Shown here: positions 42,104-49,320 of the stretch, in pieces | How positions within the stretch are numbered: the stretch's first letter is position 1 | Layout of the letters: every line of letters starts with the position of its first letter | Assembly (NCBI GenBank): GCA_945906765.1 | Contig: CAMDRF010000010.1 | Coordinates: forward strand, 1-49,563 | Length of the DNA: 49,563 nucleotides | Direction: 5' to 3' | From: Nitrosovibrio sp. Nv4 | GTDB taxonomy: Bacteria; Pseudomonadota; Gammaproteobacteria; Burkholderiales; SG8-39 | Notes under the pieces: model-generated | Told to the model about the DNA's origin: nothing | What the model saw: only the letters and a program-made list of their open reading frames with translations | The model's database searches: none | Position numbers and translations under genes: made by a program

Positions 42104-42448
42104 GTGTTCGAGATTCGGCACTACCGCAGCGCCCAGGGGCGCACGCCCTTTACCGAATGGTTCTCCGGGTTGCGGGACCGGCAGGCCCGAGCACGCATCG
42201 TGGCACGGCTCGAGCGTCTCGAAACGGGCAACTTTGGCGACTGCAAGGGCGTGGGCGGCGGTGTCAGCGAGCTGCGGATCGACTGGGGCCCAGGATACCG
42301 GGTGTATTTCGGGCGCGACGGGCAGACGGTCATTGTCCTGCTCTGCGGCGGCGACAAGCGCAAGCAGGATGCAGACATACGAAAGGCGGTGGAACTATGG
42401 CAAGAGTTCGTAGATCGGAAAAGAAGCGGGCCACGCGCAAAGCGCTGA
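42104..42448 (+). CDS. RelE/HigB-type (phage-derived Gp49-like) toxin
   Basis: A 114-residue toxin expected to cut mRNA at the ribosome. It has the family pattern RTPFTEWFSGLRDRQARARI, then GVGGGVSELRIDWGPGYRVYF and VLLCGGDKRKQDADI at the end. This is the toxin-first layout of RelE/HigB modules in which the antitoxin follows. The GTG start at 42104 lacks a ribosome-binding site. The gene is the first in the island next to the distal attachment repeat. Confidence 0.93.
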   Translation: MFEIRHYRSAQGRTPFTEWFSGLRDRQARARIVARLERLETGNFGDCKGVGGGVSELRIDWGPGYRVYFGRDGQTVIVLLCGGDKRKQDADIRKAVELWQEFVDRKRSGPRAKR

Positions 42449-42729
42449 CCGCCTCGCACCGCGAGTGGCTGGTCGGCGAACTGCGGTCTGACCCGGCGCT
42501 TGCCGCGGAGTACCTCAGTGCTGCCGCAGAAGACGGCGATCCTCGCGTCTATCTTGCGGCGCTCAGAACTGTTGCCGAGGCAAAGGGCATGGCCAAGCTT
42601 GCGAAAGCGGCAGGCGTGCCGCGTGAAAGCCTCTATCGCGCGCTTTCATCGAACGGCAATCCCCGCTTTTCCACGTTGCACGCGGTCCTGAAAGCCGCGG
42701 GACTGAAGATGGCCGTGGAGGTCGTCTAA
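42397..42729 (+). CDS. HigA-like antitoxin (addiction module antidote)
   Basis: The 110-residue antitoxin starts at the ATG at 42397 (MARVRRSEK), within the longer plus-strand ORF 42034-42729, and overlaps the toxin gene by 52 bases. The middle reads LRTVAEAKGMAKLAKAAGVPRESLYRALSS, a helix-turn-helix of the probable addiction-module antidote family, followed by NPRFSTLHAVLKAAGLKM. It should bind the toxin and the operator upstream of it. Confidence 0.92.
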   Translation: MARVRRSEKKRATRKALTASHREWLVGELRSDPALAAEYLSAAAEDGDPRVYLAALRTVAEAKGMAKLAKAAGVPRESLYRALSSNGNPRFSTLHAVLKAAGLKMAVEVV

Positions 42730-43095: not shown

Positions 43096-44412
43096 TTACT
43101 GCTCGAGGAGTCCGTTGATATCCAACAAATCTCGATCCTCTAAAATACCAGCTACCGCCTTTAATCTTAATCCACTCAGGATCAGATCATAGGTAGCCCT
43201 CGATAAATCACGCTGAGCCCCAAAATGCTGTTGCTGCGACCTTAATATGTCGATATTTGCTTTCAGGCCGACTTCGTAACCTTTCTTGTTGTATGACAAC
43301 GCTGACTGACTGGAATCCACGGCAGTTCGATAGGCATCTATTTTTGCGAAACCGTTCGACACTTTAGAATAATTGACTTTCACATCAGTCACCACTCTGC
43401 GTTGTGCAGTTTCCACTTCTGCTTGAGCGCGACTGACTGATGATATTGCCTCACTGACTTTGCTGCTGCCAATATAACCATCGAAAATAGGGATATTGAT
43501 TTCCACCCCTATCGAGCTACTCCACGAATTGTAATTTTGGGAAGTAAGGAACGATGGGCCAACAGAGTTATTCTGATAATAATAGCCGCGATCAGCCACG
43601 AGACTTACGGTGGGATATTTGCTGGCCCTGTTTATTAAAACCTGGCTTTCCGCAATATTGACTGAAATCTTTTGCAGTAGCACATTGAAATTCTGATTTT
43701 TCGCATCCGAAACCCATTTCTCCATATTTCTAGGCTCTGGTGGATGAAACTTTACTTCCCTTCGTACTTTCGCCAATTTGCCTGGAGCTTCGCCAATAAT
43801 CTCCTCCAAACGAGACCCGGCCGTTTCCAAGTCCAATTGAGCCTCAATTTCGTCGGCCAATACCTTGTTGAAGTTAACTTCCGCCTCTTTGACATCAGTG
43901 ATCATCGATGATCCCACGTCAAAGCTTCGATGAGCCAATTTAAGTTGCTCAGTAATTGCCGCTCTGAGCATTGAAGTAGCACCTAAATTGTCCTGGGCAG
44001 AAAGAACATCAAAATAAGCCTTGCTTACTCTTAATATCAAATCTTGCTTTGCCAGGGAATAATTGAGCTCCCCTTGCTTGACTACAAGCTGACTTTGATG
44101 AAGAGTTTCCAATTTTGAAACATCAAAGAGCGATTGTTTCAACTGGATCTTGTATTCCCTAGCCCGATTCAGGAAGTCGTGGCCACTTCTTTGTCCCCCA
44201 AGCTTAAACGCAATGTTTGGAAGCAGAGTTGAACGGCCTTGAGTCTCTTTCTGACTCACCGCACTCAATGCGTGTTCTGCCGCGATAATTACCGTATCCC
44301 TTATCAAGGCTTGTCGATATATCTGTTCTAGATCAACGGCGCTTGCATCGAGGTTATAAAACAACGCAAATAGCGATAAGGGAGCTATCCGTACTATATG
44401 AATGTTAAGCAT
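43096..44412 (-). CDS. TolC-family outer-membrane channel protein
   Basis: The outer-membrane exit duct for the exporter encoded upstream. From the ATG at 44412 it has 438 residues: a signal peptide (MLNIHIVRIAPLSLFALF) ending near ASA, then two OEP repeats rich in coiled-coil. LEQIYRQALIRDTVI, SKAYFDVLSAQDNL and RRVVTDVKVNYSKV are typical TolC helices. The ORF-track start 18 codons upstream would bury the signal peptide and is not favoured. The gene is AT-rich compared with the chromosome flanks. The ATPase gene ends 74 bases upstream. Confidence 0.92.
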   Translation of the reverse strand: MLNIHIVRIAPLSLFALFYNLDASAVDLEQIYRQALIRDTVIIAAEHALSAVSQKETQGRSTLLPNIAFKLGGQRSGHDFLNRAREYKIQLKQSLFDVSKLETLHQSQLVVKQGELNYSLAKQDLILRVSKAYFDVLSAQDNLGATSMLRAAITEQLKLAHRSFDVGSSMITDVKEAEVNFNKVLADEIEAQLDLETAGSRLEEIIGEAPGKLAKVRREVKFHPPEPRNMEKWVSDAKNQNFNVLLQKISVNIAESQVLINRASKYPTVSLVADRGYYYQNNSVGPSFLTSQNYNSWSSSIGVEINIPIFDGYIGSSKVSEAISSVSRAQAEVETAQRRVVTDVKVNYSKVSNGFAKIDAYRTAVDSSQSALSYNKKGYEVGLKANIDILRSQQQHFGAQRDLSRATYDLILSGLRLKAVAGILEDRDLLDINGLLEQ

Positions 44413-44486: not shown

Positions 44487-45608
44487 CTAGAAATATAATT
44501 TTTTCATCTGCATTTCGAAATTGGGGCTGGAAGCAATGGCGTGAAGAAACCACTCCTTCGTCAGAACATATGCCAGCCCGTCTTCTCGAGCAATTACTGT
44601 CGCGGTCCTCTTTCCATCACCGATCAATGCACGCTCACCGAAACATTGACCACTACCGAGAACTTCTGCTTTTATTGTATCGACGACCACGTCGACCTCG
44701 CCGTCCCGGATAAGAAAGAATTCCTCGCCCAGATCCCCCTGTTGAATAAGTACATCTCCCCTTACAAAGGGGTGTTTTGTCATTTTTTCGGATACCAAAC
44801 TGAGTTCAGAGTTATTCAAGTGTGAAAAAATACTCAGTTTTTTCATGAATTCACATATTTGAATTACTTCTTGCAGAACAACATCCGAGACGATTGCGCC
44901 GTCGACCATTTTTATAATTCGGTCAGCGGATTCCAATATACGATTGTCATGGGTGACAACAACTACTGCACTGCCGTATTCATTTGCCCACTCTTTCAGC
45001 ATGCCGATTACTTCAAGACAAGACACCTTGTCCAATGCCGCGGTAGGCTCGTCGGCCAGGATCAGCTTTGGCCGCCCAACAAGTGCTCGCGCCACTGCAA
45101 CACGCTGGCGCTGCCCTCCTGACAACTCACTGGGACGATAATTAATTCGTTTTCCAAGCCCCAAACGGTTTAGAAGTGCAATGCCATCAGAACGGTTTTT
45201 TAGCATCTCGGACGCATCACCCTGGCATGTCATCTGCACATTCTCGATCGCATTTAATGAGGTAAATAAATTGTGCATTTGAAAAATGAAACCTATTTTT
45301 CGACGCAAATCTATTATTTCTTCCTCATTGAGCGTGCTGACATCCCTACCAAGAATATTAAGATTGCCTTCTTGAAGAGTCCGGATTGCGCCCAACAATG
45401 TCAAAAGGGTTGTCTTTCCGGAACCTGAAGGCCCCGTCATCACAACCAATTTCCCCGGTTCTATTTTGAGGTTGTTGTTGAACAGGACTTGCGAACGGAA
45501 CTCCCCCGTCCCAAAGTAATGACTGAGTCCATGGACCGTTACCGGCGAATTGGAACTACCTTCACTTTTTCGCAATTTTGCGACTCCATTACTGCTCAAT
45601 AATTTCAT
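44487..45608 (-). CDS. DevA-type ABC exporter ATPase fused to a cyclic-nucleotide-binding domain
   Basis: Residues 22-250 are a LolD/DevA-like ATPase: Walker A GPSGSGKTT (59-67), signature LSGGQRQR (162-169), Walker B LILADEPTAALD (182-193) and H-loop His220. Residues 256-365 form a CNMP-binding domain: VRGDVLIQQGDLGEEFFLI, then the phosphate-binding cassette FGERALIGDGKRTATV with the glutamate and arginine that hold cyclic nucleotides. Usual DevA proteins end near residue 240, so the extra 120 residues are an addition. Ligand binding could gate ATP hydrolysis and export. Its ATG overlaps the DevC stop (ATGA). Confidence 0.93.
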   Translation of the reverse strand: MKLLSSNGVAKLRKSEGSSNSPVTVHGLSHYFGTGEFRSQVLFNNNLKIEPGKLVVMTGPSGSGKTTLLTLLGAIRTLQEGNLNILGRDVSTLNEEEIIDLRRKIGFIFQMHNLFTSLNAIENVQMTCQGDASEMLKNRSDGIALLNRLGLGKRINYRPSELSGGQRQRVAVARALVGRPKLILADEPTAALDKVSCLEVIGMLKEWANEYGSAVVVVTHDNRILESADRIIKMVDGAIVSDVVLQEVIQICEFMKKLSIFSHLNNSELSLVSEKMTKHPFVRGDVLIQQGDLGEEFFLIRDGEVDVVVDTIKAEVLGSGQCFGERALIGDGKRTATVIAREDGLAYVLTKEWFLHAIASSPNFEMQMKKLYF

Positions 45609-47972: not shown

Positions 47973-48250
47973 GATTTATTTGCCGTATTTGTATTGCGTG
48001 TTTGCTGGAAAATTTTCTAATCGCACAATTTTATTGGCTCATCTAGCGAATGATGTTGTTCAAGTCATACCCTGACCGCGAGAGTGAGCAACTGCGCGGG
48101 ATCGGGTCTGAAGCGGAGCTGTACCGCCTCCAATTATCTGGACACGATTTAGCGACTCAGGCCGCGATTCGTTCAGTATAAGCCTGACGGACTTCAAGGG
48201 GTGGGGGTGTCCCGTTGGCAGTTGAAGGTTAGAGCGGGTGGCGGAAATGA
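47973..48250. other. Upstream region of the exporter run, possible insertion-sequence end
   Basis: The first 90 or so bases are AT-rich and must contain the promoter of the exporter run (on the minus strand). No clear -35/-10 pair stands out. Further on, ATTATCTGGACA near 48136-48147 resembles an insertion-sequence end but has no matching partner. A 42-codon plus-strand frame from 48051 has no recognised family. Confidence 0.35.
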
Positions 48251-48390
48251 TTATGCGGCGTTTTGGTGTTGAAGGATAGAAGGCCGAAGTGCGTGGATGA
48301 GCGCTGGAATGTTTTTATGCCCCCAGAGCTTGCGAAACGCCTTCTCTGCTTCCAGGAAACCCGCCGCCGCCCCTCCCGCGACGCCGGGGG
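48251..48390 (-). pseudogene. IS256-like transposase C-terminal fragment
   Basis: On the minus strand the frame reads AAGFLEAEKAFRKLWGHKNI, then PALIHAL and a stop at 48251-48253. LEAEK-FR-L-GH followed by a short leucine-rich helix is the typical end of mutator/IS256-type transposases. Upstream codons (GVAGGAA) do not match the family, so only about 40 residues survive. The reading is by pattern only. Confidence 0.5.
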
Positions 48391-48509
48391 AAGTCCACGA
48401 TGCAGAACGCCTCCCCGGTCATGGGGCGCATCGTCAAGTGTGGATTCGACGATGTCGCATCCGAGGTTGGTAAGATTCAGCGAGAATTGGCAGCTTCGCG
48501 CTGCTCCTG

Positions 48510-48833
48510 ATGGAGCACTCGACAGAGGCTGAAAGCTCGGGACTGAAACTGAGCGCGTACGCCGCGAACCACCAGATCGACGTGCGCCGGCTGTATGAAG
48601 CCAAGCGCAAGCGTCCGCAACCGGCTGCTTCAAACTGGGCAGTTGTTCGCATCAAGCCAGACCCATCGGTGCAGGTCACGCCCAAGACGCGTGAGAGCGC
48701 GGCGCCAACTGTCATTGCCCTGCAAGCGCGGCTTGGCAACGGCGTCGTCTTGAGTTGGACCCACGACCAACGCAACGCGGATGTGCCATGCAGCGTGCTG
48801 CGCACCTTGGTGGCGCTGCCATGTTTCATCTGA
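48510..48833 (+). CDS. IS66 accessory protein TnpA-like
   Basis: A 107-residue protein resembling the first ORF of IS66 elements. It has a weak helix-turn-helix (SGLKLSAYAANHQIDVRRLY) and the terminal pattern ALQARLGNGVVLSW, which is typical of IS66 OrfA, ending before the overlapping tnpB start. A preceding region with no recognised terminal repeat suggests that the left end of the element is incomplete or not recognised. Confidence 0.7.
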   Translation: MEHSTEAESSGLKLSAYAANHQIDVRRLYEAKRKRPQPAASNWAVVRIKPDPSVQVTPKTRESAAPTVIALQARLGNGVVLSWTHDQRNADVPCSVLRTLVALPCFI

Positions 48834-48910
48834 GCGCCAACCTGGCGGTGTACCTGCACCGCGGGACGATTGACTTTCGCAAGAGCATCAACGGCCTGTC
48901 GGCGATGGTT
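48821..48910 (+). pseudogene. IS66 TnpB fragment
   Basis: The ATG at 48821 overlaps tnpA by 13 bases, as in intact IS66 elements, and encodes FHLSANLAVYLHRGTIDFRK then SINGLSAMV. This is the N-terminal third of the IS66 Orf2 family. After about residue 30 the match is lost and the frame continues with unrelated sequence to 49081. TnpC, the main transposase, is absent. Confidence 0.8.
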
Positions 48911-49230
48911 GTACGCCGTAGAGTCGCACGCACAGGACAACAACTTGAGCGCGTCCGAGCGCCTGCGCTAAACGTGTTTATCGCTGCCTGCCCCCCCAAA
49001 CCCCACCGCACCACGAACTTCCGTTCATCAAGGTACGGGGGCGTTTTTGCCGTAATCCGAAAACTCACGCCGCCGTACTAAACCCGAAAAAGTCAGGAGG
49101 TTTTGAGACAAACGGGGTTTGAGACGTCTTTTGCGGAAAAATGACGCGGCCGCAGTCAGGAGGTTTAGCCGCTACGCCCCTCAGGACGCGGTGCCTGAAC
49201 GCCGCTTGAGCGAGTTGGAGGTCTAGGTAC
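48911..49230. other. Island end without recognised gene
   Basis: Beyond the IS66 fragment I see no gene. A 13-base direct repeat lies in the second half (49091 and 49154). The ORFs reported here are read-through of the broken tnpB and tRNA antisense. Confidence 0.5.
49091..49166 (+). repeat. 13-bp direct repeats AGTCAGGAGGTTT near the attachment site
   Basis: AGTCAGGAGGTTT occurs at 49091-49103 and exactly again at 49154-49166, 63 bases apart; between them TTTGAGAC also occurs twice. The repeats are 65 to 140 bases from the tRNA 3' end, where integrases of tRNA-targeting elements bind arm-type sites. The link is an inference. Confidence 0.5.
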
Positions 49231-49320
49231 TGGCGGAGAGGGAGGGATTCGAACCCCCGGTACCCTTGCGGGCACAACAGATTTCGAGTCTGCCGCAATC
49301 GACCACTCTGCCACCTCTCC
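49231..49320 (-). tRNA. tRNA-Ser (anticodon CGA)
   Basis: Read on the minus strand, the gene starts GGAGAGGTGGCAGAGTGG and ends in CCTCTCC-G-CCA. The seven-base acceptor stem pairs, the T-loop GGTTCGAATCC is present, a long variable arm (TGCCCGCAAGGGTA) follows the anticodon arm, and the loop CTCGAAA gives anticodon CGA for UCG codons. Encoded CCA is included. It is the intact copy left at the integration site. Confidence 0.97.

Follow-up and report, generated by a model that had tools for sequence, protein, structure and literature searches.

Sensor domains attached to the nucleotide-binding domains (NBDs) of ABC transporters have been described mostly for importers, and to our knowledge the post-translational control of exporters is poorly understood. 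The importer proteins MetN (with its C2 domain) and ModC indicate that ligand-binding domains following the NBD can hold the NBDs apart, and the review names transporter fusions with a cyclic-nucleotide-binding (CNB) domain only for MFS proteins (PMC10710835). Among ABC exporters bearing a CNB, HetC is the only one for which we found binding data: it was reported to bind ppGpp (Kd about 59 uM) better than the other ligands tried, among them cAMP, cCMP and c-di-GMP, and its CNB is essential in vivo, an example of an ABC exporter that depends on such a domain (PMC10986499). In the open-access literature, most subscription journals lying outside the search, we found no paper on a fusion of the exporter ATPase DevA with a CNB (DevA-CNB below), and likewise none on NHLM exporters with a CNB.

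In this work, we analysed a DNA stretch of 49,563 nucleotides from Nitrosovibrio sp. Nv4, called the window below. Its devA-CNB gene (Table 1) is a single uninterrupted frame with an ATG start. Within this one ORF, the product matches both Pfam ABC_tran (residues 44-190, 108 bits, cut-off 25) and cNMP_binding (residues 281-360, 62.6 bits, gathering cut-off 27.5), while the NCBIfam DevA model covers residues 23-239 with 301.3 bits vs. a curated cut-off of 295.8, leaving the CNB outside the model. The ATPase motifs comprise Walker A (GPSGSGKT at 59), the Q-loop (Q110), LSGGQ at 162, Walker B (LILADE at 182, with the catalytic E187) and the H-loop (H220); the CNB carries FGERAL at 323 and RTAT at 334, which supply the pocket residues E325 and R334. 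The original prediction, which described a DevA-type ATPase with all catalytic motifs running into a CNB, was thus correct in every particular, and the ligand-contact Glu and Arg that it had read in the cassette are indeed present. Its further suggestion that the exporter could be switched without a separate regulator agrees with the architecture, in which none would be needed to carry a ligand signal to the ATPase.

Table 1. Features of the exporter operon and of the DevA-CNB protein (window coordinates unless residues are given)
Feature	Coordinates	Strand	Evidence
tolC-like outer membrane channel, up to 456 aa	43096..44466	-	OEP PF02321 x2; TIGR01844 type_I_sec_TolC 265 bits (cut-off 225.15)
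devA-CNB fusion: exporter ATPase + C-terminal cNMP-binding domain, 373 aa	44487..45608	-	PF00005 + PF00027, TIGR02982, AlphaFold2
CNB domain + its N-terminal helix, residues 245-373	44490..44876	-	PF00027, CNB-alone model, Foldseek PKG/CNG/PKA-R
Phosphate-binding cassette FGERALIGDGKRTAT	CNB residues 323-337 of DevA-CNB	-	
ATPase (nucleotide-binding) domain, residues ~23-242	44883..45542	-	TIGR02982, motifs, Foldseek matches MacB, LolD, YbbA, MetN
devC-like FtsX/MacB-fold permease, 396 aa	45605..46795	-	FtsX PF02687; TIGR01185 devC
devB-like membrane fusion (periplasmic adaptor) protein, 343 aa	46941..47972	-	TIGR02971 heterocyst_DevB 144.9 bits (cut-off 129); HlyD_D23

The devA-CNB gene is the third in the same-strand order devB-devC-devA-tolC, and its start shares 4 nt (45605-45608) with the end of devC. 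The permease is matched by the devC model over its full length with 250.6 bits, below the equivalog cut-off of 290.35; it would work like DevC without being filed as DevC proper. The ATG at 44412 is the probable start of the tolC-like gene; the residues after it resemble a signal peptide. As judged by the profile matches, the operon is the part set of a MacB/DevBCA-type tripartite exporter. The exporter stretch has a G+C content of 43-47% vs. 58-70% across nearly all of the remaining window. It is bounded on one side by a toxin-antitoxin-like pair adjoining this low-GC island (42104-42729, plus strand: a Gp49-like, HigB-type toxin candidate, then an HI1420-type antidote) and on the other by IS66-like remnants (48229-49320, with a weak TnpB_IS66 match) beside tRNA-Ser(CGA) (49231-49320, minus strand), a likely integration spot of the island. 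With a few candidates scored per genome, searches of 12 genomes of the same genus and 24 of the same family gave no match, and neither did 399 sampled genomes of the same order, the own genome aside. A recent horizontal acquisition of the exporter stretch is the straightforward inference.

Surveys of other DevA proteins showed that the fusion recurs. A scan of 84,980 species' genomes yielded 22 loci matching through the CNB and one frame-shifted locus (L033), and one more fusion (L077), 47% identical over residues 19-373, came from surveying 399 genomes of the phylum. This gives at least 24 further fusions, or at least 25 with the window protein; the counts are lower bounds, since the surveys scored few candidates per genome. 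The carriers belong to three phyla, Pseudomonadota (Alpha- and Betaproteobacteria), Planctomycetota and Nitrospinota, and include the cultured isolates Azospira sp. I13, Magnetospirillum sulfuroxidans and Oxalobacteraceae CAVE-383, yet the fusion is rare (at least two of the 399 genomes of the phylum, own genome included). The aligned fusions are 46-67% identical to the window protein, the closest relative (L010) being at 67%. This distribution bears on the danger, named by the original prediction, that separate genes were joined by an assembly error, or that a recent chance fusion was met. The own genome is a fragmented assembly of 149 contigs, and none of the same-genus genomes searched yielded the fusion; nevertheless, the 24 other loci, carried by independent assemblies, have the same fusion with the same junction, among them L028 on a complete Planctomycetes chromosome and L027 and L030 from named isolates. 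Such recurrence excludes chance and mis-assembly, and an artefact, being extremely improbable, was rejected.

In a maximum-likelihood tree of ATPase domains, all the included fusions formed one clade (support 98/93) with no unfused DevA inside and an unfused Cyanothece DevA next to it. The clade sits with the Cyanothece DevA and other DevA-like ATPases, apart from the included LolD/MacB-type ATPases of the own genome. As placed by this tree, the fusions are nested within ordinary, unfused DevA, and the profile and tree tests together identify the window protein as a DevA carrying an added CNB. The fusion most simply arose once and then spread. Carriage on plasmids was rejected, because the PLSDB plasmids contained no DevA-CNB fusion and only unfused cyanobacterial DevA; five such plasmid DevAs match only to about residue 240, where the Nostoc one inspected ends. 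More generally, none of the cyanobacterial DevAs inspected has a CNB, their chains stopping at about residue 240.

The aligned family allowed us to ask how strongly the sensor pocket is kept. Among 22 aligned fusions, E325 is present in all, G324 is invariant, and R334 and A327 are retained in 21 and 20 members, respectively. The mean entropy of these four positions is 0.18 bits vs. 1.53 bits for the rest of the CNB, and in a permutation test four random CNB columns were as conserved as the pocket with P = 0.00085. The alignment has no gaps across residues 225-308, so that the NBD-CNB junction is of fixed length, as expected if movement passes from the sensor to the ATPase. AlphaFold2 modelled the whole protein with a mean pLDDT of 85.4 and a pTM of 0.75, and the CNB alone with 88.6 and 0.81, giving a confident CNB. 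The top solved structures found by Foldseek for the CNB model were the CNBs of PKG, CNG channels and PKA-R (TM-scores 0.75-0.85). The C-terminal pair Tyr372-Phe373 is conserved (F373 in 17/22), although the planctomycete members do not have the full pair; F373 falls at the position of the capping residue Q532 of Plasmodium PKG (PfPKG) and Y351 of human PKG, by ungapped extension only, the helix being short and of low confidence in the model. In the Nitrospina member (L021), the Arg equivalent to R334 is replaced by Cys (CNAT); this protein is thus a natural variant in which ligand binding may have changed or disappeared.

These data also help to weigh the reading that the CNB has stopped sensing a ligand and serves as a structural or partner-binding module. 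CNB folds that bind no ligand do exist, as in KCNH channels (PMC10761061); moreover, the CNB diverges faster than the ATPase across the family (36-53% vs. 51-76% identity to the window protein), and one Nitrospina member has lost the pocket Arg. The selective conservation of the pocket relative to the rest of the domain argues against such a module, and so do the sequence scores: functional CNBs of PKG and PKA scored 48-59 bits against the CNB of DevA-CNB, while the degenerate third CNB of Plasmodium PKG reached only 5-6 bits. We therefore regard a non-sensing module as unlikely. That DevA-CNB may bind some cyclic nucleotide is plausible.

Which ligand this might be was approached through the residue following the pocket Arg. 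The Thr that the original prediction had noticed there is real (T335) and yet an exception within the family, where Asn occupies the position in 18 of 22 members, Ser in two and Gly in one, the last being the closest relative, L010. Present in a single member, Thr is thus a private feature. We know of no characterised CNB with Asn next to the Arg. In PKG I-beta, Thr193 contacts the 2-amino group of cGMP and the beta-5 pair Leu172-Cys173 also contributes, while the isolated CNB-A, despite carrying the Thr, shows no more than a two-fold preference for cGMP (PMC3080414); the corresponding pair in CNB-D of PfPKG is Leu472-Arg473 (PMC4412288). In DevA-CNB the beta-5 positions are Ala314 and Glu315 (mostly Val-Ala in the family), so that the window CNB fails one test of a PKG-type cGMP site.

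The suggestion that Thr335 makes the window member a PKG-like cGMP sensor can nonetheless draw on the Thr found after the Arg in PKG and CNG channels (PMC3080414), on the predominance of PKG and CNG structures among the top Foldseek matches of the CNB, and on R326, which corresponds to the capping-triad residue R484 of PfPKG. Against it stand the Ala-Glu pair in place of Leu-Arg or Leu-Cys, the poor conservation of the Thr and the modest discrimination by isolated PKG CNB-A. Besides, Thr occurs at the same position in two other CNB proteins of the own genome, and Ser and Thr alternate there among near-identical orthologues of the exporter encoded next to devA-CNB in Magnetospirillum. The scores do not separate the ligands either, since the best Plasmodium PKG repeats reached 57-59 bits and CNB-A of PKA RI-alpha, a cAMP binder, 56.9. 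A base rate taken from CNBs in related genomes gave Ser next to the Arg in 25 cases, Thr in two and Gln in one, figures of limited use because 30 of the loci were picked by best profile score and mostly belong to one CRP-like family. The hint of cGMP given by the original prediction was accordingly not borne out: the inference from Thr alone was rejected, the Thr not being conserved and the beta-5 determinant being absent, and a cGMP-specific switch appears improbable.

As cAMP is the commonest bacterial ligand of such domains, it serves as our first guess, with the Asn-type cassette leaving room for another. The reported binding of ppGpp by HetC warns against assuming a cyclic nucleotide at all. 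A sensor of a different nucleotide, either ppGpp as in HetC (PMC10986499) or cCMP/cUMP as in the Pycsar effectors, would be in keeping with that precedent, with the match of the CNB to Pycsar TIR-CNB effector profiles at 5e-12, and with the Asn carried by most of the family, which hints at an unusual ligand or pose. On the other hand, PKA and PKG hold the cyclic phosphate with just such an intact FGE...R cassette, and in the HetC paper the domain of that protein is aligned with CRP, FNR and NtcA instead of PKA/PKG. The match to CNB-containing defence models reflects shared domain homology only, and no Pycsar cyclase-effector pair was found beside devA-CNB. We consequently give this alternative a low probability. 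A role in defence was likewise rejected, as the PADLOC matches are explained by shared homology of the ATPase and the CNB.

The genes adjacent to devA-CNB in related loci were inspected for clues to cargo or ligand. In Magnetospirillum-type loci (L027:7099-9318, L018:5869-8040, L020:7090-9285, L026:7075-9039), the gene directly downstream encodes a type I ABC exporter that likewise bears a C-terminal CNB, its cassette reading RSAS or RTAS in the three complete copies. In three planctomycete loci (L016:6307-9132, L017:1555-4443, L033:4287-7118), one gene family follows devA-CNB; the product scanned, that of L016, is a patatin phospholipase resembling NTE, in which two CNB domains and an NTE P-loop domain were matched. 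That other CNB proteins are encoded nearby more than once may hint at shared control. Unlike the window operon, eight alphaproteobacterial loci (L012, L013, L015, L019, L023, L024, L029, L031) carry a tandem pair of DevC-like permease genes, and the stretch examined contains no DevB-like gene. Among the neighbours scanned, which differ between loci and include isocitrate dehydrogenase, DNA polymerase III tau, a chloride channel, a glycosyltransferase, the NTE-like phospholipase and a P450, we saw no conserved gene of cargo synthesis and no cyclase gene, and hence no clue to cargo or ligand from this side; nor did any conserved biosynthetic neighbour point to glycolipid export across the outer membrane. 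Class III cyclase homologues were found in all six other carrier genomes tested. In the own genome, both class III nucleotide cyclase matches (C97:6056-6448, L059; C62:2098-2494, L060) are incomplete or split between frames, through either sequencing errors or gene decay, and no class I adenylate cyclase was found. These two features of the own genome count against gating by a cyclic nucleotide.

Taken together, the results make it fairly probable that DevA-CNB is the ATPase of a MacB/DevBCA-type exporter and that, through its own cytoplasmic CNB, it is gated by a nucleotide from inside the cell, with a cyclic mononucleotide as the most likely ligand. Two DevA-CNB chains would form the NBD dimer under two DevC permeases, which would place the two CNBs side by side at the cytoplasmic end. 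The nucleotide, cAMP ahead of cGMP, would bind against the P-helix (E325, R334), and the short C-terminal helix, with its conserved Tyr372-Phe373, would close over the pocket as a lid. Binding could then shift the N-terminal helix of the CNB (residues 245-256), which leads straight out of the NBD, and thereby alter the ease with which the NBDs close on ATP. That the ligand relieves inhibition, as in PKA, PKG and HCN, is a guess, and a MetN-like brake would be equally compatible. The short C-terminal helix, the usual Asn after the Arg, the reported ppGpp binding by HetC and the incomplete aromatic pair of the planctomycete members speak against this reading. Nevertheless, since the same fused protein occurs in at least three phyla, a small signal molecule probably acts as a direct switch for some pumps of the DevA-CNB type. 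More tentatively, we suggest that DevA-CNB may represent an undescribed class of MacB-type tripartite exporter with an ATPase gated directly by a second messenger, in which the RNAT cassette may mark a new ligand or pose. If so, export to the envelope would be under the direct command of cell signalling, and grafting or mutating such a switch could yield gated exporters; the spread of the family over three phyla, cultured isolates included, makes these proposals testable now.

Compared with known systems, the locus is closest to the cyanobacterial DevBCA (HgdBC-type) exporters, with which it shares the devB-devC-devA order (cf. Nostoc sp. C052), DevA and DevB matches above the cut-offs, and the use of TolC. 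It differs from them in having the CNB, which the cyanobacterial DevAs inspected do not have, a DevC below the equivalog cut-off, and a tolC within the operon. Like HetC, whose CNB is required in vivo (PMC10986499), DevA-CNB is an ABC exporter protein with a CNB in the same polypeptide; HetC, however, is of the type I exporter fold with a C39 peptidase (PCAT) and an N-terminal CNB, whereas the window protein is a MacB-type ATPase subunit with a C-terminal one. A Pfam scan of DevA-CNB revealed no C39 peptidase, no fused transmembrane domain and no N-terminal CNB, and on this domain content it is no relative of PCAT/HetC. The ABCB-type exporter encoded by the adjacent gene in Magnetospirillum (L018, L020, L026, L027) also bears a C-terminal CNB but, unlike DevA-CNB, is a fused TMD-NBD protein with the cassette R(S/T)AS. 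The CNBs of PKG and of the PKA regulatory subunit share with DevA-CNB the fold and the cassette Glu and Arg, while they control a kinase, and DevA-CNB departs from them in the beta-5 base-contact residues, the C-terminal helix and the usual Asn after the Arg. Finally, MetNI and ModBC resemble DevA-CNB in carrying a sensor domain directly after the NBD, and Foldseek aligned DevA-CNB with MetN over the whole chain (~366 columns, rmsd ~12 A), as an NBD match with a loosely placed C-terminal domain. Those systems are importers, their regulatory folds are unrelated to the CNB, and their ligand is the transported substrate. As predicted from its domains, DevA-CNB would thus follow the known principle of an ABC transporter NBD with a C-terminal ligand sensor, while the combination of DevA with a CNB itself appears to be new as far as the open-access literature shows.
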